This document shows positions 9-26,220 of a stretch of DNA of 26,243 nt, piece by piece. The notes below the pieces were generated by a model. It made no database searches. It had not been told where the DNA came from and worked only from the letters and a program-made list of their open reading frames with translations. This stretch comes from a virus. Each line of letters begins with the position of its first letter. Positions within the stretch are counted from its first letter, which is position 1. A program made the translations under genes and the position numbers. Location: positions 1 through 26,243 of IMG/VR virus record IMGVR_UViG_3300035670_001115; one strand, given 5' to 3'.

Positions 9-419
9 ATGAGCACTACAATAATTACGGGGCGCGATGTAACCTTCACTCTTGATACGAAGCCATACGACGCTCAAACAACTTCAGCAACTTTGTCTGC
101 TGAAACAATTATCGAGACCTATCAAACTCTTGATGGTCGCGCTTATAAGTCAGTTGATAAGCAATGGACTTTCACAATTGAATTACTTCAGGACTGGGGT
201 GCTTCTGGCGCTCACGGTTCCCTATTTGAGTCAATGTGGAATAACGCTGAGCAAAACCCAAATAGCACAGTTCAGGTAGTTTTTACCGCAGTAACTGGAG
301 CAGTATTTACTTTCAATGTATTACCTATCTTCCCAACAGCTGGCGGAGCAGCACCAGGAGCTCTAACCGACACTTGGGCTCTTACAGTAGTTGGAACACC
401 TTCAGAGTCTTACACCTAA
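9..419 (+). CDS. Major tail (tube) protein, unit A
   Basis: This 136-aa protein would form the stacked rings of the tail tube. The assignment rests on its position directly before a two-frame tail chaperone and a tape measure gene, on its usual length for small siphovirus tube proteins, and on its beta-rich sequence (ITGRDVTFTLD near the N-terminus, ending in TDTWALTVVGTP). The unit B copy at 15812 matches over most of its length, with a three-residue gap near residue 67 (GASGAHGSLF against GAASSLF). The most conserved stretch is around residues 34-62. The window starts only eight bases upstream, so the SD is cut off, but the visible CCCAA matches the bases before the unit B start. The family is inferred from context and similarity of pattern, not from a search. 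Confidence 0.85.
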   Translation: MSTTIITGRDVTFTLDTKPYDAQTTSATLSAETIIETYQTLDGRAYKSVDKQWTFTIELLQDWGASGAHGSLFESMWNNAEQNPNSTVQVVFTAVTGAVFTFNVLPIFPTAGGAAPGALTDTWALTVVGTPSESYT

Positions 420-440
420 TAGATCGGAGCATCGGGAGCT

Positions 441-707
441 ATGAAGTCGCAAATAAAAATTGAATATAACTCGGGCGAGGAAGCAACTTATATTGCCCAA
501 CCGCCCGAGTATGCCAAATGGGAGAAAGCAACTGGCAAGACGATTGGCGAATTAGGCGGTGTCTGGGACATTATGTTTCTGGCATATAACGCAATGAAAC
601 GCGAAGCGGCTGGCAAGCCAGTTAAATCTTTCGAAATATGGATGGAGACAGTTGCCGACATTGATGTGGTGAACGAAAACCCAAAAGCCACAGCGCTGGA
701 AGCCTAA
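441..707 (+). CDS. Tail assembly chaperone, short (0-frame) form, unit A
   Basis: This 88-aa product corresponds to lambda gpG: a cytoplasmic chaperone that coats the tape measure protein during tail assembly. It lies between the tube protein and the tape measure and ends just after a CCCAAAA slippery heptamer at 680-686 that would give a longer form. A good SD (GGGAGC) precedes the ATG. The unit B copy is clearly diverged, including a different central part, but both keep KYNSGE/EYNSGE at the N-terminus, FxxKREAAGKP in the middle and the PK residues at the slip site. No catalytic motif is expected. Confidence 0.8.
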   Translation: MKSQIKIEYNSGEEATYIAQPPEYAKWEKATGKTIGELGGVWDIMFLAYNAMKREAAGKPVKSFEIWMETVADIDVVNENPKATALEA

Positions 708-823
708 ACTATCTTCTAACGCTTCTGGCAATTGAGACGCGGATTCCTAAACAATATTGGGATGATGCCGAAGATGTCTTAACAGCCTTGGAAATACTAA
801 AGGAGAGAAACGGTGGCAAGTGA
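441..823 (+). CDS. Tail assembly chaperone, long (-1 frameshift) form, unit A
   Basis: This product is made by a -1 ribosomal slip: bases 441-686 are read first, then reading resumes at 686 and continues to a TGA at 821-823. It equals lambda gpGT, and the T-like extension is thought to recruit tube subunits to the tape measure. The extension has 45 residues (starting SHSAGSLNYLLTLLAIETR and ending LEILKERNGGK) and has no start of its own. Unit B has an extension of exactly the same length and the same ending pattern (AIEILKERSGGR). Such conservation in a non-initiating frame is strong sequence evidence. The stop overlaps the GTG start of the next gene. Confidence 0.82.
680..686 (+). promoter_or_regulatory. 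-1 frameshift slippery site CCCAAAA, unit A
   Basis: This heptamer has the X XXY YYZ form read as C CCA AAA in the chaperone frame, which lets both tRNAs re-pair after slipping back one base. It lies 19 bases before the 0-frame TAA. The same heptamer is in the same codon phase in unit B. Confidence 0.82.
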
Positions 824-1274
824 TCCGATTACTTATGATCGTAGTGAGCTACGCGATATTCTCAAAGCCTTTAAAGCAATGGATGAGCAAGCAATCCAAG
901 AAGCTAGAACCGAAAGTAGCGCCCTTGCAACCTACGCAGCCAATCAAATTAAAGTCAGCGCTCTGGGACGAACAGTCGCGGGTGCTGGTGTTCGCAGAGT
1001 TGCCGAAGGTGTCCGCATCAGCAAGTCATCCAAGATTGGCGAATTCTCTTATGGATTTGCATCTCAAAGGTTTTCTGGTGGCGCAACGACGCAGAAGCTC
1101 TGGGCAGGACTTGAATTTGGAAGTAACCGCTATCGCCAGTTCCCCAGACGCACTCCCAACAGAGGACGCGGCAATTCTGGCTATTTCATCTACCCAACAC
1201 TTCGCAAGATTCAGCCTGAATTAGTGCGCAAATGGGAAGAAGCTTTTGCTGCAATTGTAAAGAAATGGGGATAA
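813..1274 (+). CDS. HK97 gp10-like head-tail joining / tail protein, unit A
   Basis: This 153-aa protein resembles the HK97 gp10 family, known for head-tail joining or tail completion. It has an N-terminal helix (ELRDILKAFKAMDEQAI), an AAxYAANQIK helix and the late motif GYFIYPTLRKIQPELVRKW typical of actinophage members. It starts at GTG with SD AAGGAGAG, and overlaps the end of the frameshifted chaperone. The usual place for gp10-like genes is before the tube protein; here it sits between chaperone and tape measure in both units. The unit B copy at 16622 keeps the FGSNRxRQFPRRTP and FSYGFASQRFSGG motifs. The exact assembly step is inferred. Confidence 0.7.
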   Translation: MASDPITYDRSELRDILKAFKAMDEQAIQEARTESSALATYAANQIKVSALGRTVAGAGVRRVAEGVRISKSSKIGEFSYGFASQRFSGGATTQKLWAGLEFGSNRYRQFPRRTPNRGRGNSGYFIYPTLRKIQPELVRKWEEAFAAIVKKWG

Positions 1275-1277
1275 CTA

Positions 1278-2801
1278 ATGGCTGGTAATAGAACGCTCAA
1301 GTTATCCATCCTTGCGGATGTTGACGATTTAAAGAAAAAGCTTGGTCAAGGTGAAAAAGAAGTTGAAGGCTTTGGCAACAAGCTAGGAGAATTTGGAAAG
1401 AAAGCCGCTGCTGCCTTTGCTGTTGCTGCTGCTGCAGCAGCTGCTTATGCTGGTAAATTGTTAGTAGATGGCGTTAAAGCAGCTATTGAAGATGAAAAGG
1501 CCCAAGTCAGGCTGGCCCAGACTTTGGAAAATACAACTGGTGCTACCAAAGAACAGATAAAAGCGGTAGAAGATCAAATTCTAAAAATGTCTTTGGCTAC
1601 TGGTGTGGCCGATGACAAACTAAGACCTTCTTTTGAAAAGCTAGTCAGAGCAACTAATGATGTTGAAAAAGCGCAGAAATTACAGACTTTAGCTCTGGAT
1701 ATTGCTGCTGGTTCTGGTAAAGATTTAGAGACAGTAAGCATTGCTTTAGCTAAGGCCTATGATGGAAATAATTCCTCATTAACTAGACTTGGCGTTGGTT
1801 TATCATCAGCTGAATTAAAGTCATTAAGTTTTGACCAAGTTACCAAAAAATTATCTGAAACTTTTGGTGGTCAAGCTTCACTTCAGGCAGATACTTTTAG
1901 TGGCAAGATGGCAAGAATGCAGGTTGCCTTTGATGAGGCTAAAGAATCTGTGGGCGCTAGATTATTGCCTATTCTGACTCAATTGCTAGATGCTTTCAAT
2001 ACTAAAGTAGGCCCAGCGGTTCAATCAATTCAAGATAAGTTAAAACCTTTGACTAAAGCTATTGATGATAATAAAGAGGAATTTACCGCGCTTTGGAACT
2101 TTCTAAATAAATATATTGTCCCTATAATGACCGGTGCTTTAAAAACAGCTTTTAGCGGCATAGTAACTGGCATTACCGCAGTAGTTAATATCGTAGGCAA
2201 AGCAGTCAATTTCTTTAAAGATTTATATGATGCTTATAAGAAAATTGTAGATTTTATAAAAAATAATCCATTAACTAACCTTCTGGGCAAATTGAATCCT
2301 TTTAGCAATTCTAGCTTTGGTGGAGCAGATTTTTCAATTGGCGGCGGTGGTAAGGAAGTAGATGAGTTAGGTCGCCCAGTTGTGGTCAATGCTGGCGGTG
2401 GAGGTGCTGGTGGCGGTGCTGGTGGCGGTGCTGGTGGCGGTGGCAGTTCTACAACGCCTAGAGGTGGCACACTTGATGGCGCTAAAGTTTATGAAGTTAA
2501 TGGCAGAAAAATATTGGTTCCCGCTGGTTTAGATGAGGATCAAGCCCAAGCTTATGCGGAACGAGTAGCTGCATCAATACAAAGAAAAGAAGATTTGATT
2601 GCCGAGACTGCAAGAATCCGCGAAGGAATAGCAGCTCGTAATGCTGGAAATACTACTGCCACAGATGCTGGGAGCCAAGCTATAGTCATCAATGTAAATG
2701 CTGCTTCGGTAATTGATAGCGAAGGATTTACCAGAGCAGTTATAGATGCTTTGAATGAAAGCCAAAGCAGAACTGGCGCACTAGATAATTTGGCAATATG
2801 A
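1278..2801 (+). CDS. Tape measure protein, unit A
   Basis: This 507-aa protein sets tail length and may help DNA entry. Residues 1-60 combine a charged start (LKLSILADVDDLKKKLGQGEKEVEGFG) with an Ala-rich hydrophobic stretch (residues 45-60). Residues 70-240 are helical and close to unit B. A hydrophobic segment lies near residues 275-305. A Gly-rich linker (about 370-395) is followed by a charged helical end. It is short for the family, so the tail should be short; by the usual rule of about 0.15 nm per residue it would be roughly 75 nm. Unit B's copy (459 aa) shares the N-terminal half and the last 35 residues, but has a Pro/Ser/Thr-rich segment instead of the Gly linker. The gene's TGA overlaps the next ATG. 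Confidence 0.9.
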   Translation: MAGNRTLKLSILADVDDLKKKLGQGEKEVEGFGNKLGEFGKKAAAAFAVAAAAAAAYAGKLLVDGVKAAIEDEKAQVRLAQTLENTTGATKEQIKAVEDQILKMSLATGVADDKLRPSFEKLVRATNDVEKAQKLQTLALDIAAGSGKDLETVSIALAKAYDGNNSSLTRLGVGLSSAELKSLSFDQVTKKLSETFGGQASLQADTFSGKMARMQVAFDEAKESVGARLLPILTQLLDAFNTKVGPAVQSIQDKLKPLTKAIDDNKEEFTALWNFLNKYIVPIMTGALKTAFSGIVTGITAVVNIVGKAVNFFKDLYDAYKKIVDFIKNNPLTNLLGKLNPFSNSSFGGADFSIGGGGKEVDELGRPVVVNAGGGGAGGGAGGGAGGGGSSTTPRGGTLDGAKVYEVNGRKILVPAGLDEDQAQAYAERVAASIQRKEDLIAETARIREGIAARNAGNTTATDAGSQAIVINVNAASVIDSEGFTRAVIDALNESQSRTGALDNLAI

Positions 2802-4045
2802 CAATTTGGAGCCCAACTTATCGGGTCAAGGTAAATGGCTCGACAGTTACTAACACCACTCTTAGTGGGTTAAGCATCACCTCTGGTCGCACCGATATTT
2901 ATACTCAGCCCCTTGCTGGATACTGCAACCTAACCCTGATTGAGACTGCTCAAGCTTCTATACCCTATGATATTAATGATGCGGTAACAGTAGAAGTCCA
3001 AAACTCAAGCAATGCTTATGTAACATTATTTGGCGGATTTATTACCGATTTAAATGTAACGGTCCAGACTTCTGGCTCTACTGCTACCAGCCAACAAATC
3101 AAAATAACCGCTGTTGGAGCCCTAGCTCGATTGGCCAGAGCAGTATATACAGGCAACTTTGCTCATCAATTTGATGGCGACCGAATTGCTGAATTGCTTG
3201 AAGGGGTCCTATTTGACCAATGGAATGAAGTGCCAGCAGCTGAATCTTGGAACGCTTATGATCCAGCAGTTCAATGGCTCGATGCTGAAAATACTGGATA
3301 TGGAGAAATCGATACCCCAGGAGATTATGAGCTTCATTCCGAAAGTAATCTAAACGATACAGTTTATAACCTAGCTTCCCGCTTTGCTACCAGCGGACTC
3401 GGTTATTTATATGAGGATTCTTCGGGCCGCATTTCTTATGCAGACTCAACTCATCGAGCCCAATATCTTGGCCTAAATGGATATGTTGATTTAGATGGCG
3501 CTCACTCAATCGGCCCGGGATTATCAATCGTTAAACGCGCTGGAGATGTTAGAAACTCTATAACTATTGCTTATGGCTCAAATGGAAGCCAAAGCGTTAC
3601 TGATGAAGATGCCAGCTCAATCACAGCCTATGGAGAATTGGCGACCACAATTTCCACTACTCTTAGAAATCAAAGTGATGCCGAGGATCAAGCTGCTTTC
3701 TATCTACTTATCAGAGCCTTCCCTCAATTTGGGCTAAGACAGATAACCTTCCCAGTCGGGAGCCCCGAGATTGATAATACTGACCGAGATGCCCTTCTAG
3801 GGGTCTTTATGGGTATGCCTATCAATGTCATTAACCTGCCAGCCAATATGGTAAATGGCGAGTTTCAAGGATTCGTAGAAGGTTGGACTTGGACAGCCAG
3901 CCTTAATCGGTTAAATCTAACTATGAATATATCGCCAGTAGCATTCTCGCTACAGGCTTTCAAGTGGAGCGATGTGCCAGCCACAGAGCTCTGGAATACA
4001 ATTAACCCAGCTTTGGACTGGCTTAACGCTACAATAGTTGCCTAA
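2798..4045 (+). CDS. Minor tail protein (distal tail / baseplate), unit A
   Basis: This 415-aa protein follows the tape measure with an ATGA overlap, which is the place of distal tail and baseplate-hub proteins in siphoviruses. It is beta-rich, begins YRVKVNGSTVTNTTLSGL, and has a conserved EGWTWTASLNRLNLTM motif near the C-terminus, a pattern common to actinophage minor tail proteins. Unit B's copy (414 aa) is alignable from end to end. Two imperfect internal copies of a W-N/A-D-P motif (near residues 147-157 and 400-410: ESWNAYDPAVQWLDAE and ELWNTINPALDWLNAT) may be structural repeats. No enzymatic domain is evident. Confidence 0.8.
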   Translation: MTIWSPTYRVKVNGSTVTNTTLSGLSITSGRTDIYTQPLAGYCNLTLIETAQASIPYDINDAVTVEVQNSSNAYVTLFGGFITDLNVTVQTSGSTATSQQIKITAVGALARLARAVYTGNFAHQFDGDRIAELLEGVLFDQWNEVPAAESWNAYDPAVQWLDAENTGYGEIDTPGDYELHSESNLNDTVYNLASRFATSGLGYLYEDSSGRISYADSTHRAQYLGLNGYVDLDGAHSIGPGLSIVKRAGDVRNSITIAYGSNGSQSVTDEDASSITAYGELATTISTTLRNQSDAEDQAAFYLLIRAFPQFGLRQITFPVGSPEIDNTDRDALLGVFMGMPINVINLPANMVNGEFQGFVEGWTWTASLNRLNLTMNISPVAFSLQAFKWSDVPATELWNTINPALDWLNATIVA

Positions 4046-4054
4046 GGAGAATAG

Positions 4055-5485
4055 ATGCCAACGACAAGTAATTTCGGATGGACAACCCCAGCCGATACAG
4101 ATTTAGTTAAGGATGGAGCCGCTGCTATCCGCACATTGGGTAATGGCGTAGATGCTTCATTAGTTGATCTTAAAGGTGGCACAACTGGTCAAGTATTGAG
4201 CAAAGCCACAAATACCGATTTAGATTATACTTGGATTACTCCAAATGTTGGAGATATAACTGAAGTCCAAGCTGGAACAGGTATTTCAGTAGCTTCAGGA
4301 ACTGGCCCAATTCCTGTAATTACTAATACAGCAACTACCACAATTGATGCTGAGGGAGATTTATTAGTTGGAGATGCCGCCGATGCATTACAAAGATTGG
4401 CAATAGGATCTAATGGCAATGTCTTGACAGTTGATACAGCCGTAGATGGCAAAATAAAGTGGGCCGCGCCTGCTGCTGGCGGTGTGAATAAGAACTACCT
4501 AATCAATGGTGGTTTTGCCATTGCTCAACGAGGCACTTCTTTTACTGCTTCGGCTAACAATGATGATGCCTATACTTTGGATCGCTGGTATATTCTTTCA
4601 GACACCAATGATGTTATTGATGTTACTCAGGATACTTCCACAGTTCCCACTAATGGACAGTTTGCTATTGCTTTAGATGTAGAAACAGTAAATAAGAAGT
4701 TTGGCATAGCAACAATTATAGAAAACAAAGATTGTGTTGGTTTAATCGGCAACACAGTTACCTTTAGTTTCAAGGCTAAAGTATCTGCTACTACTAAACT
4801 AGACAATGTTAAAGCTGCTATTGTGGCTTGGTCAGGCACAGCCGATACAGTAACAAGCGACATCATAAGTGCTTGGAATGTTGAAGGCACTAACCCTACT
4901 CTTATCGCCAATGCTACTTATGAGAACAGCCCAGTAAATCTAAACCTAACTACGTCATACGCTAGTTATTCAGTATCGGCAGCAGTAGATACAGCCAGCA
5001 CAAAGAACATTATTTTGTTTATTTGGTCAGATGTAACTGATACAACACTTGGAGATTTTCTTTATATTGCTGAAAGCAAATTGGAGCTTGGATCAACTGC
5101 TACAGCTTTTGAATATGCAGGCGGCACACTCGAAGGCGAGTTAGCCGCTTGCCAGAGGTATTATTATTTGGTGGTTAGTAATGATAGCCGAGGTTTAATT
5201 GCTTTAGGAACCTATGATGGGGCAACAGTAGTATCCGCGCCTATTAAGTTGGCAGTAACAATGAGGACAGATCCAAGCCTTTCAATAACAACTGGGTCAA
5301 ATTATTATGTTTTTAGAGCGAACGCTTCAGACGATACTTTTGACAGCCTACTGTTAATGGGAGAAGTCACAACTAATACAGCTGGAGTTTATACAACTAG
5401 CGGCGTATCTGGAACTGGCGGACACGCTGGTAATTTATATACTAACAATGCTTCTGCTTCATTAGCCTTTAGTGCGGAGTTATAA
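4055..5485 (+). CDS. Tail fibre / receptor-binding protein, unit A
   Basis: This 476-aa protein is the likely host-recognition fibre. The first 30 residues (TTPADTDLVKDGAAAIRTLGN) are an attachment tip shared with the unit B fibre gene. Residues 50-140 look like a repetitive beta shaft. Residues 147-360 begin KNYLINGGFAIAQRGTSF, include LDRWYI, and end with KLELGSTATAFE and ACQRYYY, a pattern seen in many phage fibres with a carbohydrate-binding-like beta domain. The C-terminus has a Gly/Ser/Asn-rich tail. Apart from the attachment tip it has no match in unit B, where three genes take its place. SD AAGGAGAA precedes the ATG. Confidence 0.75.
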   Translation: MPTTSNFGWTTPADTDLVKDGAAAIRTLGNGVDASLVDLKGGTTGQVLSKATNTDLDYTWITPNVGDITEVQAGTGISVASGTGPIPVITNTATTTIDAEGDLLVGDAADALQRLAIGSNGNVLTVDTAVDGKIKWAAPAAGGVNKNYLINGGFAIAQRGTSFTASANNDDAYTLDRWYILSDTNDVIDVTQDTSTVPTNGQFAIALDVETVNKKFGIATIIENKDCVGLIGNTVTFSFKAKVSATTKLDNVKAAIVAWSGTADTVTSDIISAWNVEGTNPTLIANATYENSPVNLNLTTSYASYSVSAAVDTASTKNIILFIWSDVTDTTLGDFLYIAESKLELGSTATAFEYAGGTLEGELAACQRYYYLVVSNDSRGLIALGTYDGATVVSAPIKLAVTMRTDPSLSITTGSNYYVFRANASDDTFDSLLLMGEVTTNTAGVYTTSGVSGTGGHAGNLYTNNASASLAFSAEL

Positions 5486-5659
5486 ATGAGAATATATAAT
5501 GTGATAAACGATGAACTGAACAACTGCCAAATTATCTGGTATGACGAAAACGGATTCCGTATTTCATTCACCAATAAAGACCCTGCCAACTCAGACTACC
5601 AACGCTATCTGCGCTGGCTAGAAAATCCAGAGGCAGAAGAAAACGGCACAATCTCGTAG
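5486..5659 (+). CDS. Small protein after tail fibre, unknown function
   Basis: This 57-aa ORF (MRIYNVINDELNNCQIIWYD...) begins directly after the fibre TAA and ends four bases before the M15 peptidase gene. It is acidic with several aromatic residues. Its place corresponds to the 112-aa gene at 21007 in unit B, though I see no clear similarity. Small proteins in this place are often fibre chaperones or accessory tail proteins; that role is inference from position only. Confidence 0.55.
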   Translation: MRIYNVINDELNNCQIIWYDENGFRISFTNKDPANSDYQRYLRWLENPEAEENGTIS

Positions 5660-5663
5660 GAAT

Positions 5664-6203
5664 ATGGCAAAACTTTGCAAAGCAGGCCTCCAGCTCAGGG
5701 AGCAGATAGATGACGATTATCCTGATCGCGATAGGAAGTCTGATGGGTGGATTGCTGATTCTCGGCATCTTGCTAAAGGCACTTCTGACCATATACCAGT
5801 CGATGGAATCGTTAGAGCTTTAGATATTGATGCTGATTTATCAGCTCACAAAGAAGAGGCTTACGCGCTAGTTGAGAAGATTCGCAAATTAGCCAAGAAA
5901 GGCGATAAGCGGATTAAATATATTATTTTTGATGGAAAGATTATGAGTCCGATACTGGGATGGAAGCGCAGAACTTACAAAGGTTCTAACCCACACCGGT
6001 CTCATTTTCATATTTCATTTACAACTTTGGGAGACAAAGATGGCAGTTATTTCAACCTCGAAGGAGAAGCTAATGAGCGACCTAAAGAAAATGGCAGAGA
6101 GCTGGGCCAAGACATTTCTAGCAACGGCACTAGCGACTTATCTAGCAGTCGGCTTAGATGTCGATGCAATTGCCAATGCAGCTCTAGTATCAGTCTTGCC
6201 TAG
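5664..6203 (+). CDS. M15-type peptidoglycan peptidase (endolysin), unit A
   Basis: This 179-aa protein is a likely cell-wall endopeptidase of the M15 (VanY/L-Ala-D-Glu or D-Ala peptidase-like) group. Visible zinc-site candidates are H43 in GTSDHIPVDG, D54 or D56 in RALDID, and H114/H116 in NPHRSHFHISF, followed by GDKDG. The domain ends near residue 130. The remaining 49 residues are low-complexity, with a Cys cluster near residues 166-172, and are mostly read through the holin gene in another frame. The same stop position is kept in unit B. There is no signal peptide, so holin-dependent release is expected. Confidence 0.75.
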   Translation: MAKLCKAGLQLREQIDDDYPDRDRKSDGWIADSRHLAKGTSDHIPVDGIVRALDIDADLSAHKEEAYALVEKIRKLAKKGDKRIKYIIFDGKIMSPILGWKRRTYKGSNPHRSHFHISFTTLGDKDGSYFNLEGEANERPKENGRELGQDISSNGTSDLSSSRLRCRCNCQCSSSISLA

Positions 6204-6255
6204 CATAATCAACTGGCTCAACCCCAACTATGAGCGTTACGGTAAAGTCCGTTAA
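6073..6255 (+). CDS. Holin-like small membrane protein, unit A
   Basis: This 60-aa protein would permeabilise the membrane for the M15 lysin. It has a charged start (MSDLKKMAESWAK), a hydrophobic stretch from about residue 15 to 48, and a charged end (NPNYERYGKVR). I chose ATG 6073 and not the in-frame ATG at 6040 because AAGGAGAA lies just before 6073 and because the unit B copy has the same SD and start. It overlaps the 3' end of the M15 gene by 131 bases in another frame. Residues from IANAALVSVLPS to the end are identical in both units. Confidence 0.7.
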   Translation: MSDLKKMAESWAKTFLATALATYLAVGLDVDAIANAALVSVLPSIINWLNPNYERYGKVR

Positions 6256-6446
6256 TGCCAGCGGCTGAATTGGCCACCTTAGTAGCTTCAGTCTTAGGCT
6301 CAATAGCCTTGCTGATTGCTGGCCTTCGCTACATAATTAAATTGGAAAATATCCCCATAGTGTCGCGCCTTGATAAGATGGAGTCTCAGCTAGAATTAGC
6401 CCTAGCGAAGGGAGTCCGAAATGGCAACGCGAAAGCGCGTAAGTAA
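6255..6446 (+). CDS. Small membrane protein with C-terminal coiled coil, unit A
   Basis: This 63-aa protein has one N-terminal membrane segment (LATLVASVLGSIALLIAGL), followed by a charged helical tail (KMESQLELALAKGVRNG). It shares one base with the holin stop (TAATG) and could be a second holin, antiholin or spanin-like partner; there is no proof. The protein is identical in unit B although the DNA has many synonymous changes. The 3' end overlaps the next gene by 26 bases. Confidence 0.65.
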   Translation: MPAAELATLVASVLGSIALLIAGLRYIIKLENIPIVSRLDKMESQLELALAKGVRNGNAKARK

Positions 6447-6681
6447 GAAGCCAGTCAAGCGTCCAAAGAGACGCAGGACTACTAAAGAAACCCCATTAAC
6501 AAAGCTTGATTTCTGGGCTATTGCTGCCAATGAAGTTTATAAAGCTTGTCGCAGAGCAGGAATGGATGAGGGAACTGCTTTAGCCTTTGCTATGGATCGT
6601 AGCTCTTATCCCGATTGGATAGTGCCACTCGATGACCCAATGAGGAAGATTGGTTGGGAAGATGGAGAAGAGGACAACTAA
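6421..6681 (+). CDS. Basic-tailed conserved protein, unknown function, unit A
   Basis: This 86-aa protein has a strongly basic N-terminus (RKRVSKKPVKRPKRRR, residues 3-18) followed by a compact helical domain (LDFWAIAANEVYKACRRAG) and an acidic end (EDGEEDN). The basic arm suggests nucleic-acid contact. Position after the lysis genes and before a nuclease-like gene suggests a late packaging or DNA role, but I do not recognise the family. All 86 residues match unit B in spite of synonymous changes. Confidence 0.6.
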   Translation: MATRKRVSKKPVKRPKRRRTTKETPLTKLDFWAIAANEVYKACRRAGMDEGTALAFAMDRSSYPDWIVPLDDPMRKIGWEDGEEDN

Positions 6682-9710: not shown

Positions 9711-9784
9711 TTTGGTTTTGTATAGCTCTTATCCTGCTTGGTATTTATGTGCTTTATAAGGCAGGTGAGGCATTAGATGATTAA
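9707..9784 (+). CDS. Tiny membrane peptide, unit A only
   Basis: A 25-aa ORF begins with an ATGA overlap and is almost wholly a membrane segment (IWFCIALILLGIYVLYKAG). Unit B has no matching ORF: there the next gene starts directly. It has a good SD (AGAAGG) and its stop overlaps the next start, so it is probably translated. The role is unknown. Confidence 0.45.
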   Translation: MIWFCIALILLGIYVLYKAGEALDD

Positions 9785-19709: not shown

Positions 19710-19718
19710 AGGAGAACG

Positions 19719-20153
19719 ATGACTACCACCGCAATTTTAGGTATTACCATTCCAGATGATACCGATCTAGTTAAAGACGGCGCTTCGGCAATGAGGACAA
19801 TAGGCAATGGATTTGATGATGCTCTAGCGAAATTGACCTTAAACGCCCAGACTGCTACTTATACCGCAGTTTTAACAGACAACAGAAACAAGCTAGTAAC
19901 GATGTCCGTTGCTGGCGCTAATGATTTTTTAATACCAACAAATGCAACAGTTGCCTTTCCAATTGGGTCGGTAATTAATGTTATTCAAATTGGCGCTGGT
20001 CAAACAACTATTAAAGCCGTTACACCAGCAACTACTACAATTGCTTCAACTGGTGCTACTTCTACTGCGCCAAAATTAGCGGTGCAGTATTCGGCAGCTT
20101 CTTGCATTAAAGTTGCAACTGATACTTGGTATGTAGTCGGAGATATTGCGTAA
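19719..20153 (+). CDS. Short tail fibre / adhesin base, unit B
   Basis: This 144-aa protein shares only its N-terminal attachment part with the unit A fibre (TIPDDTDLVKDGASAMRTIGNGFDDAL, residues 10-36). The remainder is a short beta domain (TAVLTDNRNKLVTMSVAGAND...GSVINVIQIGAGQTTI...YVVGDIA), a pattern seen in small fibre tips. It probably links the tail tip with the Gly-rich adhesin encoded next (one-base overlap). Confidence 0.65.
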   Translation: MTTTAILGITIPDDTDLVKDGASAMRTIGNGFDDALAKLTLNAQTATYTAVLTDNRNKLVTMSVAGANDFLIPTNATVAFPIGSVINVIQIGAGQTTIKAVTPATTTIASTGATSTAPKLAVQYSAASCIKVATDTWYVVGDIA

Positions 20154-21007
20154 TGACCGTTCTCGGGATTATTGGTTCAATAAAAAAAATTCCAGTTGAT
20201 TACTTAGTTGTAGCTGGTGGCGGTGGCGGTGGTAATGATGCTGCTGGCGGTGGCGGAGCTGGCGGTCTGCGATCAACATTAGATGCAACTGGCGGTGGGG
20301 GAACATTAGAGAAATCTTTATTTATACGGCCTAAGCTTAATTTCACCGTAACAGTTGGCGCTGGTGGCGCGATTGGGGCAAACGGAAATAATTCCGTTTT
20401 TGCAACAATTACTTCAACTGCTGGTGGTGCTGGTGCTTCTTTTGATTTAAATGGTAGTGCTGGTGGCTCAGGTGGCGGTGGAGCTTGGTCAAATAACAAT
20501 GTCGTTAATAGAACAGGTGGCGCTGGAACTGCAAATCAAGGTTACGCAGGTGGCAATGGAACTACTGGTGTTGGGACAACTGGCGGTGGTGGTGGCGGCG
20601 GTGCTAATGCAGTTGGCGGCAACGCAGCTTCGCCTAATGGTGGCGGTGGCGGTAATGGAGTTGCTACTTCAATTTCTGGTTCTTCAGTAACTTATGCAGG
20701 TGGCGGCGGCGGCGGTGGGGGTAATAGTGGCTCACCAGCTTCTGGTGGAACTGGTGGCGGTGGAAATGGTCAAGGCCCATCAACTGCCGCAACTGCTGGA
20801 ACGGCTAACACAGGCGGAGGTGGCGGTGGCGCTAAAGCAGGTGGCGGCGGCGCAGGAGCAGCTGGTGGATCAGGCATTGTAATTCTTCGTTATCCAAATA
20901 CTTATACAATAACAATTGGTGCTGGATTAACGGCATCAACAGTAACAAGTGGGGCTAACAAAATTACTACAGTAACTGCTGGCACAGGAAATGTGAGCTG
21001 GTCATAA
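20153..21007 (+). CDS. Glycine-rich tail adhesin, unit B
   Basis: This 284-aa protein starts MTVLGIIGSIKKIPVDYLVVAGGGGGG. Residues 25-240 are rich in GGGG/GGxGG runs, and the domain ends GGSGIVILRYPNTYTITIG, as in the Gly-rich domains of many phage adhesins (polyglycine sandwiches such as that of S16 gp38). Between the Gly runs, variable loops could bind the receptor. The last 40 residues form a Thr-rich beta tail. ATG 20153, in TAATG overlap with the fibre base, is preferred over the upstream ATG/GTG. Nothing like it occurs in unit A. Confidence 0.7.
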   Translation: MTVLGIIGSIKKIPVDYLVVAGGGGGGNDAAGGGGAGGLRSTLDATGGGGTLEKSLFIRPKLNFTVTVGAGGAIGANGNNSVFATITSTAGGAGASFDLNGSAGGSGGGGAWSNNNVVNRTGGAGTANQGYAGGNGTTGVGTTGGGGGGGANAVGGNAASPNGGGGGNGVATSISGSSVTYAGGGGGGGGNSGSPASGGTGGGGNGQGPSTAATAGTANTGGGGGGAKAGGGGAGAAGGSGIVILRYPNTYTITIGAGLTASTVTSGANKITTVTAGTGNVSWS

Positions 21008-21345
21008 TGGCGCATTACGCTTTTTTAGATAAAAACAATTTGGTAACTGAAGTTATCGTAGGCGTAGATGAAGATGAACTAATTGACGGTTTAAATCCTG
21101 AAATATGGTATGCGAATTTTAAAGGACAAACCTGCAAGCGGACTTCATACAATAATAAAATTCGGAAACAATATGCTGGTATTGGATATAAATATGATGA
21201 AATCGCTGATGTATTTATAGCTCCTAAACCTTATGACTCTTGGTCATTAAATGAAAATTTTGATTGGGAAGCACCCGTTGCAAAGCCAGACGGTTTTTAT
21301 GTCTGGGATGAAAATAACCTAAATTGGGTAGAAATAGATGGCTAG
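21007..21345 (+). CDS. Tail accessory / fibre-associated protein, unit B
   Basis: This 112-aa protein (MAHYAFLDKNNLVTEVIVGVDEDE) has the pattern of a family of small proteins encoded after phage fibres: F-LD-NN-V--VIVG at the start, RTSYNNKIRKQYAGIGYKYDEIADVFI in the middle, and W-DENNLNWVE at the end. The function is unknown; a tail or virion component is likely. It overlaps the adhesin (TAATG) and the M15 gene (8 bases). Confidence 0.6.
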   Translation: MAHYAFLDKNNLVTEVIVGVDEDELIDGLNPEIWYANFKGQTCKRTSYNNKIRKQYAGIGYKYDEIADVFIAPKPYDSWSLNENFDWEAPVAKPDGFYVWDENNLNWVEIDG

Positions 21346-21877
21346 ATTATGCGCAGCAGGTATTCAACTTCGGGAGCAAATTGATGACGATTATCCTGAT
21401 CGCGATAGGAAGTCTGACGGCTGGATTGCTGATGCTCGTCACCTCGCTAAGAGCACTTCTGACCATATACCAAGAGATGGAATCGTTAGAGCTATAGATA
21501 TTGATTCTGACCTATCGGCACATAAAGAAGAAGCTTATGCGCTGGTCGAGAAGATTCGCAGGTTAGCAAAGAACGGCGACAAAAGAATTAAATACATTAT
21601 CTTTGATGGCAAGATAATGAGTCCAATATTGGGATGGAAGCGCAGATCTTACAGAGGCGCAAATCCGCACCGCTCACATTTCCATATTTCATTTACAACC
21701 TTGGGAGACAAAGATGGCAGTTATTTCGAACTCGAAGGAGATACTAATGAAAGACCTAAAAAAAGCCGCCGAAAGCTGGGGCAAAGCATTTCTAGCAGCA
21801 GCACTAGCGACTTATCTAGCGGTGGGATTCGACCCTGCTGCCATTGCAAATGCAGCTCTAGTATCAGTCTTGCCTAG
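21338..21877 (+). CDS. M15-type peptidoglycan peptidase (endolysin), unit B
   Basis: This 179-aa protein is of the same length as the unit A enzyme and keeps the putative zinc residues (H43 in TSDHIPRDG, D54/D56, H114/H116 in NPHRSHFHIS). The tail beyond residue 140 differs at about a third of positions, but keeps the Cys cluster and the same end SSSISLA. It overlaps the holin gene by 131 bases, as in unit A. Confidence 0.75.
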   Translation: MARLCAAGIQLREQIDDDYPDRDRKSDGWIADARHLAKSTSDHIPRDGIVRAIDIDSDLSAHKEEAYALVEKIRRLAKNGDKRIKYIIFDGKIMSPILGWKRRSYRGANPHRSHFHISFTTLGDKDGSYFELEGDTNERPKKSRRKLGQSISSSSTSDLSSGGIRPCCHCKCSSSISLA

Positions 21878-21929
21878 CATCATCAACTGGCTCAACCCTA
21901 ACTACGAGCGTTACGGCAAAGTCCGTTAA
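21747..21929 (+). CDS. Holin-like small membrane protein, unit B
   Basis: This 60-aa protein starts at ATG 21747 behind AAGGAGATACTA. It has the same layout as the unit A copy: a charged start, a hydrophobic body and a charged end. Differences occur only in the first 30 residues; the second half is identical. It is the frame better conserved in the overlap with the M15 gene. Confidence 0.7.
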   Translation: MKDLKKAAESWGKAFLAAALATYLAVGFDPAAIANAALVSVLPSIINWLNPNYERYGKVR

Positions 21930-22120
21930 TGCCAGCGGCTGAATTGGCCACCTTAGTAGCTTCAGTTCTAGGATCTATAGCCTTACTGATTGCTGGCCTT
22001 CGCTACATCATCAAATTGGAGAATATTCCAATAGTGTCGCGCCTTGATAAAATGGAGTCTCAGTTAGAATTGGCCCTAGCGAAAGGGGTCAGAAATGGCA
22101 ACGCGAAAGCGCGTAAGTAA
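21929..22120 (+). CDS. Small membrane protein with C-terminal coiled coil, unit B
   Basis: This 63-aa protein is identical to the copy at 6255, although codons differ at many third positions (for example in VLGSIALL and IIKLENIP). One membrane segment is followed by a charged helix. It may act with the holin. The gene overlaps the next by 26 bases, as in unit A. Confidence 0.65.
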   Translation: MPAAELATLVASVLGSIALLIAGLRYIIKLENIPIVSRLDKMESQLELALAKGVRNGNAKARK

Positions 22121-22355
22121 GAAGCCAGTCAAGCGTCCTAAAAGACGCAGGACTACTAAAGAAACGCCTTTAACAAAGCTTGATTTCTGGGCTATTGCTG
22201 CCAATGAAGTTTATAAGGCTTGCCGTAGAGCTGGTATGGATGAAGGAACTGCTCTGGCCTTCGCTATGGATCGTAGCTCTTATCCTGATTGGATAGTGCC
22301 ACTCGATGACCCAATGAGGAAAATTGGTTGGGAAGATGGCGAGGAAGATAACTAA
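22095..22355 (+). CDS. Basic-tailed conserved protein, unknown function, unit B
   Basis: This 86-aa protein is identical to the unit A copy at 6421. Basic N-terminal arm, helical middle and acidic C-terminus. The identity at protein level with synonymous DNA change shows that the exact sequence matters. I do not know the family. Confidence 0.6.
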   Translation: MATRKRVSKKPVKRPKRRRTTKETPLTKLDFWAIAANEVYKACRRAGMDEGTALAFAMDRSSYPDWIVPLDDPMRKIGWEDGEEDN

Positions 22356-22366
22356 TTTTCCGCGAA

Positions 22367-22762
22367 GTGGAGCTATTTGAATGGTTGAAGGAGAGAGTCC
22401 CAGACCTAGAACCTAGCCGACCCACCGAGAAATTCGATGGCATATCGATGAACCTTCGAGCCATATTTGAACTAAAATGCCGTAGGACTCACTACGATGA
22501 TTTAATGATTGAGCAGACCAAGTGGGCTAGCTTGGCCGAATACGCGGTTCTAAGGGACTTTAGAGCCTTCTATATCAGTTCTACACCTCTCGGTATCTAC
22601 TGCTGGCAGATAGACCCTCTAACACCCCCTGAATGGCAGATAAAGAGCCTTCCTACAAAGACCGACTTCGCAGGCAGTAAGACCACAAATAGGCCAGTTG
22701 GCTTCCTGCATATTGATACAGCTAATGATTTATTGCGACACTCCGAAAATCTATTTGCCTAA
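22367..22762 (+). CDS. PD-(D/E)XK-like nuclease, unit B
   Basis: This 131-aa protein has the same core as the unit A copy (D-GISMN, FELKCRRTHYDDLMIEQTKW), but otherwise is much changed, mainly in the C-terminal half. The start at GTG 22367 is forced: the frame is closed by TAA at 22349-22351. SD is GAGGAAG, rather far away. If so, the first residues are MELFEW; a non-standard ATT start at 22355 cannot be excluded. Confidence 0.6.
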   Translation: MELFEWLKERVPDLEPSRPTEKFDGISMNLRAIFELKCRRTHYDDLMIEQTKWASLAEYAVLRDFRAFYISSTPLGIYCWQIDPLTPPEWQIKSLPTKTDFAGSKTTNRPVGFLHIDTANDLLRHSENLFA

Positions 22763-22826
22763 ATACATTTACCTTTAATACATTTAACCTACTAAATCCA
22801 TTTCGAGGGTTTAGAAGGGAGCATAA
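22763..22826 (+). promoter_or_regulatory. Putative early control region: paired ATACATTTA repeats and hairpin, unit B
   Basis: ATACATTTA occurs at 22763-22771 and 22778-22786, 15 bases apart. A hairpin follows: CTAAATCC (22792-22799) with GGGTTTAG (22807-22814), with one T-G pair. The SD AAGGGAG (22815-22821) is directly behind it. Layout is the same as in unit A, but stem bases differ in a pairing-preserving manner. Confidence 0.5.
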
Positions 22827-23027
22827 ATGATAAATAAAGTAGCTCTTATTCGATTTGACTCGCAGGCTGGAGCTTGGACTGATGAGACAAATTGGGTTAA
22901 GGGATCAATAATCAGACGATTTGCTAAAGAGCGGATGGGTAAGAAGCAGCTTAGAGGCAGATTATCTAAGGCTGAAATCTCTGCATATTGGCTCGATAAA
23001 TATGGGGTGAGTGCAGATGTTGCCTAA
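22827..23027 (+). CDS. Conserved 66-aa early protein, unit B
   Basis: This copy differs from the unit A protein only at residue 2 (I for V). It is the first gene behind the control region. Basic central region (RRFAKERMGKKQLRGR); function unknown. Conservation suggests a host-interacting or regulatory protein. Confidence 0.6.
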   Translation: MINKVALIRFDSQAGAWTDETNWVKGSIIRRFAKERMGKKQLRGRLSKAEISAYWLDKYGVSADVA

Positions 23028-23181
23028 TTTATCTGATGAAGCAGTTGCAGGAATAATCATTGGAGTTCCATTTATCGGCCTTTATATTTGGAGTCTTTGG
23101 AACTCATCTAAAGCCAAAGCCTTTAATGAAGGTTATAAGAGAGGAAGGTCAAGTGTCCGATTCACAGAGATCGTTAAGTGA
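23017..23181 (+). CDS. Small single-pass membrane protein, unit B
   Basis: This 54-aa ORF starts within the preceding gene and reads MLPNLSDEAVAGIIIGVPFIGLYIWSLW at its start in two parts: a short polar head and a membrane segment. The tail KAKAFNEGYKRGRSSVRFTEIVK is as in unit A. It is topped by a different residue pair (WNSS for FTSA) after the membrane segment. Confidence 0.6.
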   Translation: MLPNLSDEAVAGIIIGVPFIGLYIWSLWNSSKAKAFNEGYKRGRSSVRFTEIVK

Positions 23182-23470
23182 CTGGCTCGAAGATGCTGGA
23201 AACACATTACTCGACAGGGGCATCGAGTATGGTGACCCGAGGAGTAATTTTCTACGCATTTACAAAATCGCGAGAGCACTCGGTATTCAGCTCCGAGACC
23301 CAGCTGACTTGGCGCTTATTGCTATCGCGACCAAACTCTCAAGAATGCTGGAGAGTCCAGAGCGCCAAGATTCGTATCTCGATCTCATTGGGTATTCCGC
23401 TATCTTGGGTCGATGCAGATTTTCTACACCAGAAGATTGGGACGACATTGAGTCTGACTCGCAATCATAA
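23153..23470 (+). CDS. DUF6378-like protein, unit B
   Basis: This 105-aa copy has the same GTG start (behind AGGAAGG) and the same family pattern (RGIEYGDPRSNF, ATKLSRMLESPERQDSYLDLIGY). Changes are concentrated in the first 30 residues. The last 35 codons are almost unchanged at DNA level. The role is unknown; a nucleotide-metabolism role has been guessed for such helical phage proteins. Confidence 0.68.
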   Translation: MSDSQRSLSDWLEDAGNTLLDRGIEYGDPRSNFLRIYKIARALGIQLRDPADLALIAIATKLSRMLESPERQDSYLDLIGYSAILGRCRFSTPEDWDDIESDSQS

Positions 23471-23735
23471 TACGAATCAATACTGCGACTACTGCAAATA
23501 TCGCTGGGGACAAAATAAGAATGGCTGGGATTTAAGAGCTACAACACCAGCAGTCTGGAAAGTCCAAAGCGAGACACCGCTTCGTAAAGCAGAGGTTAGG
23601 TTTTATTGCCAGCCTTGCGCAGATGAAGTTCAAAACTGGCCAGATGGCACATTTTACTCATTAAAAGAACAGTTAGACGATGCGATAAGTAATTTCGCAG
23701 GGAGAGAGAAGTTAAATGTCGAATTACCTAGATGA
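23448..23735 (+). CDS. Zinc-ribbon protein 1, unit B
   Basis: This copy (95 aa from TTG 23448) keeps CDYC and CQPC pairs and the C-terminal helix KEQLDDAISNFAGREKLNVELP. The true start is uncertain, as in unit A, because the frame is open upstream to GTG 23178. The one extra residue at the end comes from a base change in the old stop. Confidence 0.5.
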   Translation: MSLTRNHNTNQYCDYCKYRWGQNKNGWDLRATTPAVWKVQSETPLRKAEVRFYCQPCADEVQNWPDGTFYSLKEQLDDAISNFAGREKLNVELPR

Positions 23736-24303
23736 TTATGTAAGTGTTCAAGACCGATTAAAGGAGTTTATAAATGCTTATCCAGATTATAGAATCAAGA
23801 CTCATATCTTGGCGGAGTCGCTTGTGGCTAATTGCGATGTCTATATCATTAAAACTGAGCTATATCGCACTGAAGCTGACACACACCCTTGGACTACAGG
23901 TTTATCCAGTGAGTCTAAATCCAAGCAATATGCACTGGAGCTTGCGGAAACTGGATCGTTGGGACGCGCACTTAACCTCGCTGGATACTTCGCTAAGACT
24001 AAACAAAGCCCAAAGAAGGCAATTGAAACGACTAAGCCAGCTCTTGCGGAATTCATAAAAGAGCAACGCCCTAATGATCCTGAACCAATTGTCTGGGATG
24101 TAAGCCAGATAGCAAATCAATTAGGTGCTGAGATAATTGATGAAATCCCATTATGTTCTGGTGGAGATGGGCCAATGGTCTTAAAGACTGGCACTAAAGA
24201 AGGCAAAGAATATAGGGGCTGGGTATGTCCTACTCCTAAGTCTGGTCATCCTGCAAAGTGGATGAGAGTTGGTTCAGATGGGCACTGGGTCTTTCAAAAA
24301 TGA
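23716..24303 (+). CDS. Rad52/Erf-like single-strand annealing protein candidate, unit B
   Basis: This 195-aa copy differs from the unit A protein at four positions that I can see (A/T in EADxHPW, P/Q in KxSPKK, A/Q in DVSxIAN, I/V in MRxGS). In the first 130 codons the DNA is nearly unchanged as well. The core pattern ALELAETGSLGRALNLAGYF is kept. It may anneal single strands in replication or recombination. Confidence 0.55.
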   Translation: MSNYLDDYVSVQDRLKEFINAYPDYRIKTHILAESLVANCDVYIIKTELYRTEADTHPWTTGLSSESKSKQYALELAETGSLGRALNLAGYFAKTKQSPKKAIETTKPALAEFIKEQRPNDPEPIVWDVSQIANQLGAEIIDEIPLCSGGDGPMVLKTGTKEGKEYRGWVCPTPKSGHPAKWMRVGSDGHWVFQK

Positions 24304-24635
24304 GAAGTGACGCTCATCCATTTATCTGCTCAGGTTGCAAGTTAGTTACTCCGCATATTGAGTTGCATAAATATGATGCTAGTGATATTGCTGAAGCACC
24401 CGAGGAAGTCTGGCTAGTTGAGTGCCAAAGGTGCTTTATGCAAAGAATCATTTATCCAGCAGATCGCGTAACGGCCAAAGAGGACGATATTGTCCGGTGC
24501 GACCAATGTGGTAAATGGAAAATGAAGGCGGCTAAATGTCGAATATGCAGATTAGCTGCTGGACTTGAGTCAATATCTGAACGCTACTGGACTGGTGGCG
24601 AGACCCTGGAAAGGCCATACAATGCCAATTTATGA
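24300..24635 (+). CDS. Multi-zinc-ribbon protein 2, unit B
   Basis: This 111-aa copy starts with ATGA overlap and keeps all eight Cys of the unit A copy (ICSGC, ECQRC, RCDQC, KCRIC). Residue changes are mostly at the N-terminus and C-terminus. The function is unknown, presumably binding nucleic acid or protein through its zinc sites. Confidence 0.62.
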   Translation: MRSDAHPFICSGCKLVTPHIELHKYDASDIAEAPEEVWLVECQRCFMQRIIYPADRVTAKEDDIVRCDQCGKWKMKAAKCRICRLAAGLESISERYWTGGETLERPYNANL

Positions 24636-24792
24636 ATATCGATGCGACAAATGCGATAAATCAAAAGAGCTAGTTGCATCAATAGTCCAGAAATATGAAG
24701 TAACCTGCGATAATTGCAATGTGCCTATGTGGCGCGTATGGCATCCAACGCCAGCAATATTCAAAGGAGAAGGATGGGCAGGGAAGAAGTGA
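24622..24792 (+). CDS. FmdB-like zinc-ribbon protein, unit B
   Basis: This 56-aa copy starts MPIYEYRCDKCDKSKE and keeps C8/C11 plus CDNC and FKGEGWAGK. The part between the Cys pairs is different from unit A (LVASIVQKYEVT against QYQPITLRNLVI). The family is FmdB-like zinc ribbon; the phage role is unknown. Confidence 0.72.
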   Translation: MPIYEYRCDKCDKSKELVASIVQKYEVTCDNCNVPMWRVWHPTPAIFKGEGWAGKK

Positions 24793-24983
24793 GCAAGCCC
24801 CACTCTATTAGATATATCCGTCAGCTGATGGAGTGGGGATTTGATAAGGAGTTTATCGCCAAGGATTGCGGTATCAATCTGGCATCACTTGAGACCAGAT
24901 TAAGAAGGCAAGAAGAAAGGGAGCGCAGGAATGGGAATCAAGGAACTGAGTCTGGAACTAGCGGCAGTCAGCCTAATAGCTGA
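24789..24983 (+). CDS. Small helix-turn-helix protein, unit B
   Basis: This 64-aa copy starts at GTG overlapping the FmdB stop. The HTH part (IRYIRQLMEWGFDKEFIAKDCGINLASLETRLRR) differs from unit A at one residue. The end is four residues longer. It overlaps the next gene by 53 bases. A DNA-binding role is likely. Confidence 0.6.
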   Translation: MSKPHSIRYIRQLMEWGFDKEFIAKDCGINLASLETRLRRQEERERRNGNQGTESGTSGSQPNS

Positions 24984-25407
24984 TGAGGCTAAGAAGGCCA
25001 AGGATAGGCTAAGAGCTGCACTACAGACAGAGATGGACAAGATAGGTGCAGACAGAGTAAAGGCTGAATATGGTGATGATGTTATCGCCTATGTGACTAC
25101 CAGTAAGCCGAAGTTCAAGTGGGTAGTCAAGAACGAGCGCGAGTTCGTTAAATGGGTAAAGAGCAATATATCTAGCGAGATAGTTGAGACAGTAAGAGAA
25201 TCGTCAATTGATGCGATACTAGATAAGTTCCACTATATCAATGGCGATGATGTTATTGATCCAAATGGTGAAAGAGTTGAATGGCTAGAAGGCACAATAG
25301 CTGAGCCTTATCTGGTTACTAAATTCCATAGTGATGGCAGGGAAAGGCTGAAAGACGCCTTTCAGTCAGGCCAGTTAGAGTTTAAGAAGATATGGGAGTT
25401 AGAATGA
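24931..25407 (+). CDS. Conserved actinophage early protein, unit B
   Basis: This 158-aa copy keeps the N-terminal helix and ADRVKAEYGDDVIAYVTT, and is changed in the middle (KNEREFVKWVKSNISSEIVETVRESS and HYINGDDVIDPNGERVEW). The end SGQLEFKKIWELE is conserved. The function is unknown. The stop overlaps the next start. Confidence 0.6.
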   Translation: MGIKELSLELAAVSLIADEAKKAKDRLRAALQTEMDKIGADRVKAEYGDDVIAYVTTSKPKFKWVVKNEREFVKWVKSNISSEIVETVRESSIDAILDKFHYINGDDVIDPNGERVEWLEGTIAEPYLVTKFHSDGRERLKDAFQSGQLEFKKIWELE

Positions 25408-25481
25408 AAGATGATATATACCCAATCTGGAGAGATGTAGATGACCATATGGACCAGCCAGATGGGGTTGATTTCCAGTAA
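25404..25481 (+). CDS. Small acidic protein, unit B
   Basis: This 25-aa ORF (MKDDIYPIWRDVDDHMDQPD) corresponds to the 33-aa ORF at 9777. It starts directly in the stop of the preceding gene, so the 25-aa membrane peptide of unit A is absent here. The conserved core suggests a true peptide; the function is unknown. Confidence 0.5.
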   Translation: MKDDIYPIWRDVDDHMDQPDGVDFQ

Positions 25482-25525
25482 ATACTAATAAAACTTGTCC
25501 AAATAGTGAGATGAGGGGTAAGTCA

Positions 25526-25930
25526 ATGCGTAGAAAATTTGACAAAGGCATTACCATAACGCCAAAGCGCGGGCGCATAGCTGGCCCTTTAGCGAAGGTG
25601 AGGCCAGCCTATTGCCTTTCGCTGATGCTACTGGCCTTGCAAGCTATATCTATTGAATCATCAAAAGCAGATATGAATCTTAAACTCTATGCTTACAATA
25701 AAATGGATTGGTCAGAATTCCAATGTTATAACTGGCTAATTTATAAAGAGAGTAGATGGAATCCCAAGGCTCGCAATGGATCTCACTATGGCCTTGGTCA
25801 GATGCGTTCTACTTGGTATAAAGACCTTAGCCCTAAGAAGCAAATAGATGCACATATTAAATACATAAGGCACAGATATAAAGATGCTTGCGATGCACTT
25901 CATCACCTTGAGACTCGGGGCTGGCATTGA
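25526..25930 (+). CDS. Secreted lytic transglycosylase-like protein, unit B
   Basis: This 134-aa copy starts at ATG 25526 behind GAGGGG; an upstream in-frame ATG at 25511 has no SD. A twin-basic N-terminus (MRRKFDKG) and hydrophobic segment (YCLSLMLLALQAIS) form a signal peptide, likely cut after SKA. The mature part is nearly the same as in unit A, with the ESRWNPKARNG catalytic Glu and GLGQM. The C-terminus reads HHLETRGWH. Confidence 0.72.
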   Translation: MRRKFDKGITITPKRGRIAGPLAKVRPAYCLSLMLLALQAISIESSKADMNLKLYAYNKMDWSEFQCYNWLIYKESRWNPKARNGSHYGLGQMRSTWYKDLSPKKQIDAHIKYIRHRYKDACDALHHLETRGWH

Positions 25931-26220
25931 GTAGAAGATACAACTCAACCTACTACCAGCGCACTAGATTGCAAGTGTTACAAAGAGATTACAACACTTG
26001 TCATTACTGCGGACTAGAAGCCAATACAGTTGATCACTTGATACCGATAAGCAAAGGTGGAACTGATGAAGCTTCTAATATGGTGGCTTGCTGCACTCAA
26101 TGCAATAGTTCTAAGCGCGATAGGATGACCCCCACCTTTTTTGAGCGCGCATCCAGACCCACGACCCCCATTGGGAAGATTTTCCCTGAAAATGGCTCGG
26201 CTAGGCACTATCAGGAATGA
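25927..26220 (+). CDS. HNH endonuclease, unit B
   Basis: This 97-aa copy starts at TTG (TTGA overlap) and keeps the zinc and active-site residues (CHYCG, VDHLIP, SNMVACCTQCNSSK). It differs from HNH-A at few residues, all before the last 30 codons except one near the end. It is directly followed by a terminase gene, as in unit A. Confidence 0.85.
   Translation: MSRRYNSTYYQRTRLQVLQRDYNTCHYCGLEANTVDHLIPISKGGTDEASNMVACCTQCNSSKRDRMTPTFFERASRPTTPIGKIFPENGSARHYQE
26125..26211 (+). repeat. 87-bp block identical in both units, candidate cos site, copy B
   Basis: The second copy, 15,639 bases after the first. It has the same inverted repeats GGGAAgattTTCCC (26173-26186) and ATTTTCcctGAAAAT (26179-26193) and the GACCC repeats. 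Bases directly upstream and downstream differ from copy A. Confidence 0.55.

Follow-up and report, generated by a model that had tools for sequence, protein, structure and literature searches.

The virus record IMGVR_UViG_3300035670_001115, analysed here as one window over its whole length of 26,243 bp (guanine plus cytosine, GC, 43.9%), is probably a chain of co-occurring strains of a 15-16 kb phage with cohesive ends, joined through the packaging site (cos). Our best reading is that the contig is neither one phage with two genome copies nor a tandem prophage. The chain would consist of the right arm of a strain designated A, one whole genome (10,531-26,169), and 74 bases from the start of another left end. 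The left end at 10,531 is referred to as type M, the right arm of the same unit as B, and the left end at 26,170 as type C. The parts of the contig are as follows.

1..10519, plus strand: right two thirds of the strain A genome, from the major tail gene to the right terminus, judged by the tandem similarity
10520..10530, no strand: first cos, putative 11-nt cohesive end CCACGACCCCC, with 12 contig ends just before it and 50 contig starts just after it in 360 sequences
10531..26169, plus strand: one complete genome from cos to cos (M-left to B-right), 15,639 bp long with the 11 nt counted once, judged by the cos positions and the match to locus L328
26159..26169, no strand: second cos, same 11 nt as the first, judged by the cos position
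26170..26243, plus strand: initial 74 bases of a further left end, type C, unlike the left end at 10531
10486..10572, no strand: 87-bp block identical to 26125-26211, straddling cos with 34 nt before it and 53 nt from the first cos base on

Tandem copies in the window

The first-pass annotation of this contig had described positions 9-10,581 as recurring in tandem at 15,812-26,220 in a diverged copy, and self-comparison agrees, giving an offset of 15,639-15,803 bp. The direct repeats pair 7-1971 with 15810-17782 (68% identity), 2685-4154 with 18349-19818 (71%), 5656-9707 with 21328-25407 (85%), and 9906-10604 with 25560-26243 (85%). Identity between copies A and B in bins of 200 columns ranged from 44% in the fibres up to 97%, and two proteins, of 63 and 86 aa, had the same sequence in both copies. 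The units are not identical, as those of a homotypic replication concatemer would be, and the earlier statement that the copies form no plain concatemer was borne out, together with the observation that the terminase start at 26,217 is unlike the one at 10,578. The head module reported between the copies is present, but it is simply the left arm of the cos-to-cos unit. This repeat unit is cos to cos, 10,531-26,169 (15,639 bp), and the longest identical run of the two copies, 87 bp at 10486-10572 and 26125-26211, is the phage packaging site. No exact terminal repeat of 10-2999 bp was found in the window. A circular molecule of 26 or 31 kb was considered and is unsupported, since the window has no terminal repeat and the approximately 5 kb needed for a 31-kb circle are absent from the contig.

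Genome termini and putative cohesive ends

Genome ends were compared in 360 sequences, none contained in another, with near-duplicates included and with the loci first fetched in the last scan, for relatives of the A right arm, left out. The scans kept the best 80 loci or matching rows, and the counts describe the fetched sequences and not the whole collection; the terminase scan used the best 80 of at least 596 confirmed relatives. Fifty of the 360 sequences start exactly at the left end (ATTGGGAAG/ATCGGGAAG), and eight more have the motif within 30 bases. Twelve stop exactly at ..AGAC or ..AAAC, 11 nt before the left-end start, and one more ends 4 bases later. Both termini were exact in six sequences, which are complete linear genomes of 15,041-16,087 bp, with fixed linear termini as in a cos-type phage. 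Among the 80 terminase-scan loci, chosen without the cos sequence, 22 have their first base exactly at the left end, which lies 47 bp ahead of the terminase start.

Contigs that cross cos hold 11 extra bases. These were CCACGACCCCC in 102 of 105 crossings; the search pattern, which fixes the 11-nt spacing, biases this count, and the count is partly built in because some loci were picked by patterns of the cos region. The count was repeated on the loci from protein scans, where CCACGACCCCC occurred in 78 of 81 cos sites; here hits were counted with at most three changes in the 26 bases of the flanking motif, and 26 hits with seven or eight changes were set aside as chance. Variant 11-mers were seen in three crossings (G011, L030, and L212), CGACGACCCCC once and CATCGACCCCC twice. 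Contigs with free ends lack the 11 nt and crossings have them, which fits trimming of a 3' overhang, and we infer a putative 3' cohesive end whose overhang was lost in library preparation. With cos at 10,520-10,530 and 26,159-26,169, the window divides into 10,519 bp of strain A, a complete genome (15,639 bp), and the 74 bp with which another left end begins.

The 26 bases that follow cos (10531-10556) were unchanged in 98 of 113 left ends of the protein-scan loci, all 113 having at most three changes, and they are near-invariant even at third and synonymous positions. This codon invariance was likewise partly built into the wider set by the choice of loci, and the figures given are those repeated on the protein-scan loci. 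The near-invariance points to a constraint on DNA as well as on protein, as would be expected of a packaging recognition site inside a gene.

Change of strain along the contigs

Strain changes at cos were found in another long contig, G002. Its unit 3370-18436 equals G016, the complete linear monomer of another record, in 15,067 of 15,067 bp (100.000%), while the sequence before and after the unit is 71-75% like the corresponding unit parts. Since the unit equals a monomer while the flanks differ, both switches in G002 lie at cos. The best matches of both flanks, G002 itself aside, were G007 and then G012, which suggests a layout of X-right, Y, X-left for two strains X and Y. Loci L063 and L083 have 5,553 bp in common at 100% and diverge just past cos. 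For pairs with a near-identical arm (at least 99% over at least 300 bp, with room on both sides), five agree across cos, eight differ, and one was unclassed. The break rate per 100-bp step in pairs of at least 99.5% identity (at least 600 bp) was 4/26 in the cos bins against 34/4,305 elsewhere (p 6.6e-5, the pairs not being independent). At laxer thresholds the contrast is weaker, with 9/47 at cos against 286/6,638 overall at 99%, and 36/111 against 1,678/13,186 at 98%.

The window's own switch would lie at 10,520, and it is bracketed between approximately 4,371 and 15,148 by two relatives. Over its entire 7,392 bp, L328 (from another record) is 100% identical to 15148-22539. L252 matches 1-4371 at 98.9% and runs 653 bp upstream of window base 1, where it differs from 15145-15803 at many sites; in L252, the stretch ahead of the A tail gene is not 15145-15803. 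With L252 as a proxy for strain A, one switch falls within the bracket, a range that includes cos. No same-strain relative spanning 4,371-15,148 was found among the loci compared, where relatives of at least 93% cover parts only. L252 and L328 both begin within three bases of each other at approximately 15145-15148, which is likely a strain branch point.

Right arms and left ends were compared in 72 crossings with flanks of at least 250 bp, a right arm being called B-like at a minimum of 82%; 32 of the 105 crossings were set aside for short flanks. Left ends of type M (n = 15) had a right arm like B in nine crossings, like A in one (L010), and like neither in five. For type C (n = 21) the corresponding right arms were seven like A, seven like B, and seven like neither, and in the 36 crossings with a left end of neither type they were six like A, five like B, and 25 like neither. 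The association of M and C left ends with the right arm gave a Fisher p of 0.08. These counts weakly suggest that the middle unit is one intact genome and that A|M is the odd joint; that M-left and B-right belong to one genome is supported, not proven. The closest relatives of the A right arm among the best 80 loci were L128, L010, L461, L212, and L153. Their left arms were M-like in L010, C-like in L212 and L153, and of neither type in L128, with L461 outside the comparison.

Other long contigs and origin of the joint

A total of 31 records were examined whole, comprising 30 picked for length and the window, and overlaps between laps were counted only if more than 12,000 bp apart and at an E value of 1e-8 or better. 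Exact terminal repeats were present in eight records (127 bp in six of them), non-identical laps in ten, and no overlap in 13. The 127-bp terminal repeats probably mark circles closed by the assembler at k = 127. Besides the window, non-identical laps were found in G001 (97.3%), G002 (71-75%), G003 (93%), G004 (82%), G005 (97%), G008 (95%), G010 (98.8% over 81 bp), G024 (98%), and G030 (95%). In G003, G005, G008, and G030 the longest block common to both laps is exactly 127 bp and stands at the contig end, and here the assembly walk appears to have gone round a circle and then exited along the branch of another strain. The idea of a special two-genome molecule, raised in the first-pass annotation, loses ground, as contigs with non-identical laps recur with other strain pairs and some of them carry this assembly signature. 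A homotypic chain would collapse to a circle in assembly, so that heterotypic chains alone show up as contigs of more than one unit; how many of them were seen therefore says nothing of how frequent they are.

Several observations weigh against a chain of strains joined at cos, or against assembly as its cause. Firstly, the laps of the window, G002, and G004 have no common 127-mer, their longest common blocks being 87, 59, and 44 bp, and around cos the lap pairs share 87 bp in the window and 41 bp in G002. The window thus lacks the k-mer common to both laps at the contig end that would mark an assembly spiral. Blocks of 87 and 41 bp should by themselves be too short for an assembler to jump at k = 127, so there may be true reads over the joint, or strains that have recombined at cos; if the walk had passed through a third strain, no 127-bp mark would remain. 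Secondly, near-identical pairs part elsewhere too, and switching is not confined to cos: other hot single bins had 4/41 and 4/47 at 99.5%, 8/23 at 99%, and 35/82 and 49/130 at 98%. Thirdly, L010 unites an A-like right arm with an M-like left arm, and A|M may be an ordinary combination. Finally, G022 (loci L448 and L449) is 20,637 bp and thus longer than one unit, with no lap overlap, no recognised cos, and only a partial terminase match, and the chain reading does not account for it.

The first-pass annotation had proposed a heterodimer made at co-infection, ligation of cohesive ends, or an assembly chimera at an identical block. All three still stand, and it can be added that the identical block is the packaging site and that comparable contigs change strain there. 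With a near-universal 11-mer and shared blocks at cos, the ends of different strains could anneal in the cell or in the tube, and the conserved stretch also offers an assembler a bridge. The shortness of the shared blocks favours true reads over the joint; the 127-bp signature in four contigs favours assembly. We give a joint made in assembly, including walks through a third, recombinant strain, about an even chance, with low certainty. Physical joining of cohesive ends, in cells or in extracted DNA, falls somewhat short of even, and a joint of other origin is improbable.

Physical joining could have taken place in a co-infected cell, where the linear genomes of two strains with the same cohesive ends would be ligated to each other and then copied as a 31-kb circle or a mixed chain; we hold this physical form of the best reading as a tentative possibility. 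The odds of this and of the three alternatives discussed after it overlap with one another and with those of the best reading. The 11-mer common to 78 of 81 sites would let ends of different strains anneal, the flanks of G002 with the same best relatives fit X-right, Y whole, X-left, and the B-like right arms at nine of 15 M left ends, against 7/7/7 for type C, make A|M and B|C look swapped. Concatemers in cellular DNA of marine samples are also described in the excerpted text of an earlier report (PMC3861242). Against this, the M/C association is weak at the Fisher value given above, and the long contigs, which reveal heterotypic chains only, are uninformative on how frequent such chains would be.

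As a further reading, a natural recombinant genome could have A|M as its regular junction, through a crossover in the conserved cos block, and the contig would change strain elsewhere; we rate this as rather unlikely. The eight contig pairs that have one near-identical arm and differ across cos are in keeping with such recombinants (five pairs agree and one is unclassed), as is L010, but G002 would probably require two reciprocal recombinants. Annealing and ligation of virion DNA from different strains through their cohesive ends, once the DNA had been extracted, is in our view quite unlikely. Such ligation would agree with the frequent exact free termini and with the switches of G002 at cos, yet random joining should give unrelated flanks, and in G002 the two best relatives are the same on either side. 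Tandem prophages or a stable two-genome element in a bacterial chromosome, which the two complete-looking modules in tandem might bring to mind and which the first-pass annotation rightly rated as less likely, are barely credible, for both ends of the record are phage genes with no host flanks, the 30 proteins scanned included no integrase family, complete linear monomers with exact ends exist, and a scan of the bacterial genome collection yielded no confirmed relative.

As a caution, a cos-phage contig that exceeds one unit can consist of several strains in a chain whose seam is the packaging site; free contig ends, a shared 11-mer, and a k-mer block are simple tests for such chains. According to the portions of the sources available, VIRE excludes contigs by the CheckV kmer_freq value as possible concatemeric repeats (PMC12807717), and Phables lists contigs of more than 1.5 times the expected length as a warning (PMC10563150). 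Laps as divergent as those of the window may escape a k-mer measure. A literature search on cohesive ends together with chimeric contigs found no paper. If mixed chains are real in cells, phage strains could meet and recombine by way of a near-universal cohesive end.

HNH gene across the packaging site

The last gene of the unit encodes an HNH endonuclease and crosses cos in both copies.

10288..10581, plus strand: HNH endonuclease, copy A; frame crosses cos and overlaps the terminase start
25927..26220, plus strand: HNH endonuclease, copy B; also crosses cos (Pfam HNH_5 5e-12, HNH 5.5e-11)

The HNH frame runs through cos in all 88 crossings with enough upstream sequence, 17 crossings with too little being left out. 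In 87 of them it is open for at least 75 codons, and one copy in G001 is open for 62 codons to the contig end. The frames have 15-20 codons beyond cos, with three running off their contig, and in 180 left-end copies no stop of the peptide came before 15 codons. In linear DNA, the last 15-20 codons of the gene sit at the opposite genome end. None of the Pfam HNH matches extends past residue 71 of 97, and all stop ahead of the codons severed at cos, so linear DNA may still give rise to an active protein that lacks its last codons. In HK97 the HNH protein GP74 promotes cos cleavage, according to the excerpt consulted of PMC9410871. The annotated HNH gene of four known small phages (Courtney3, Schiebs, PoRanda, and RRH1) ends 27-86 bp before the right end, whereas in the window group it crosses cos. 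A rather doubtful proposal is that this widespread group of small phages, by keeping a near-universal cohesive end, would routinely form mixed concatemers in co-infected cells, and that the HNH gene spanning the joint would be made whole only by joining, with its last codons taken from the following genome.

Relation to known phages

Megablast of window positions 1-24000 against 50,697 phage records gave no match. The terminase matched 1,558 records, all below 60% identity and mostly phages of Actinobacteria, and the capsid matched 88 records, including small phages of Arthrobacter, Gordonia, and Microbacterium. The phages matched by these two proteins suggest an actinobacterial host. Going by their IMG numbers, the samples are probably from lakes.

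The window group appears to work like Arthrobacter cluster AN, although by identity it is not a member. Cluster AN (Decurrovirus, e.g., Courtney3, KX443695) has genomes of 15.3-15.6 kb, an 11-base 3' extension, and no integrase (PMC5679792). Both have the order terminase, portal, fused protease/capsid, and HNH as the last gene (PMC5679792), and the window has the fused protease-capsid gene and the 15-16 kb genome of that cluster. It falls below the nucleotide identity of more than 85% among cluster members (PMC5679792). The cohesive end is CCCGCGCCACC in cluster AN and CCACGACCCCC in the window group, GC is approximately 60% against 44% in the window, and protein identity was 24-41% in the segments found. 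The annotated HNH gene of cluster AN stops 27 bp before the right end and does not cross cos as in the window group.

Gordonia phage Schiebs (14,646 bp), Microbacterium phage PoRanda (17,510 bp), and Rhodococcus phage RRH1 (14,270 bp) are likewise small and have HNH as the last annotated gene. A fused protease/capsid is annotated in Schiebs and PoRanda, as in the window, and the capsids of the three are 25-34% identical to that of the window, in RRH1 over a short segment. Their HNH genes end 31 bp (Schiebs), 74 bp (PoRanda), and 86 bp (RRH1) before the right end of the record, while that of the window group crosses cos. A small terminase subunit is annotated in Schiebs and RRH1, unlike in the window. 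The phage concatemers in metagenomic fosmids (PMC3861242) resemble the window as head-to-tail chains of more than one unit; as far as the excerpted text of that report goes, completeness was taken there from identical end repeats or overlapping near-identical clones, whereas the laps of the window differ.

Gene content

The gene content is that of a small siphovirus, with terminase, portal, fused protease-capsid, major tail, tape measure, tail fibre, transglycosylase-like protein, and HNH endonuclease. Besides the HNH genes given above, the following were assigned.

10578..12059, plus strand: terminase large subunit (phrog_9, 7.2e-66)
12084..13211, plus strand: portal protein (phrog_12, 6.4e-41)
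13201..14766, plus strand: fused prohead protease and major capsid protein (phrog_2263 4.3e-72; Peptidase_S78 5.5e-10; Phage_capsid_4 1.9e-7)
15812..16213 (copy B) and 9-419 (copy A), plus strand: major tail protein (phrog_4574 5.5e-5 for B; A by similarity)
17089..18468 (copy B) and 1278-2801 (copy A), plus strand: tape measure protein (phrog_991 1.3e-12 for B)
25511..25930 (copy B) and 9872-10291 (copy A), plus strand: transglycosylase-like protein (phrog_35836 1.3e-8 for B)

No integrase family was found among 30 window proteins searched against PHROGs, a scan of part of the open reading frames with the small ones of copy A mostly outside it, and to that extent the earlier remark that no integrase is visible holds. 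The sole match to transcription regulation among these proteins was a weak, FmdB-like one at 24565-24792. The tape measure of copy A (1278-2801) had only two matches in the phage collection, the better being EBPR siphovirus 6 with 38.7% over 38% of the length. The reading frame at 23060-23470 matches PHROG families named phosphofructokinase (best 2.6e-15), a name ill-suited to a protein of 136 aa.

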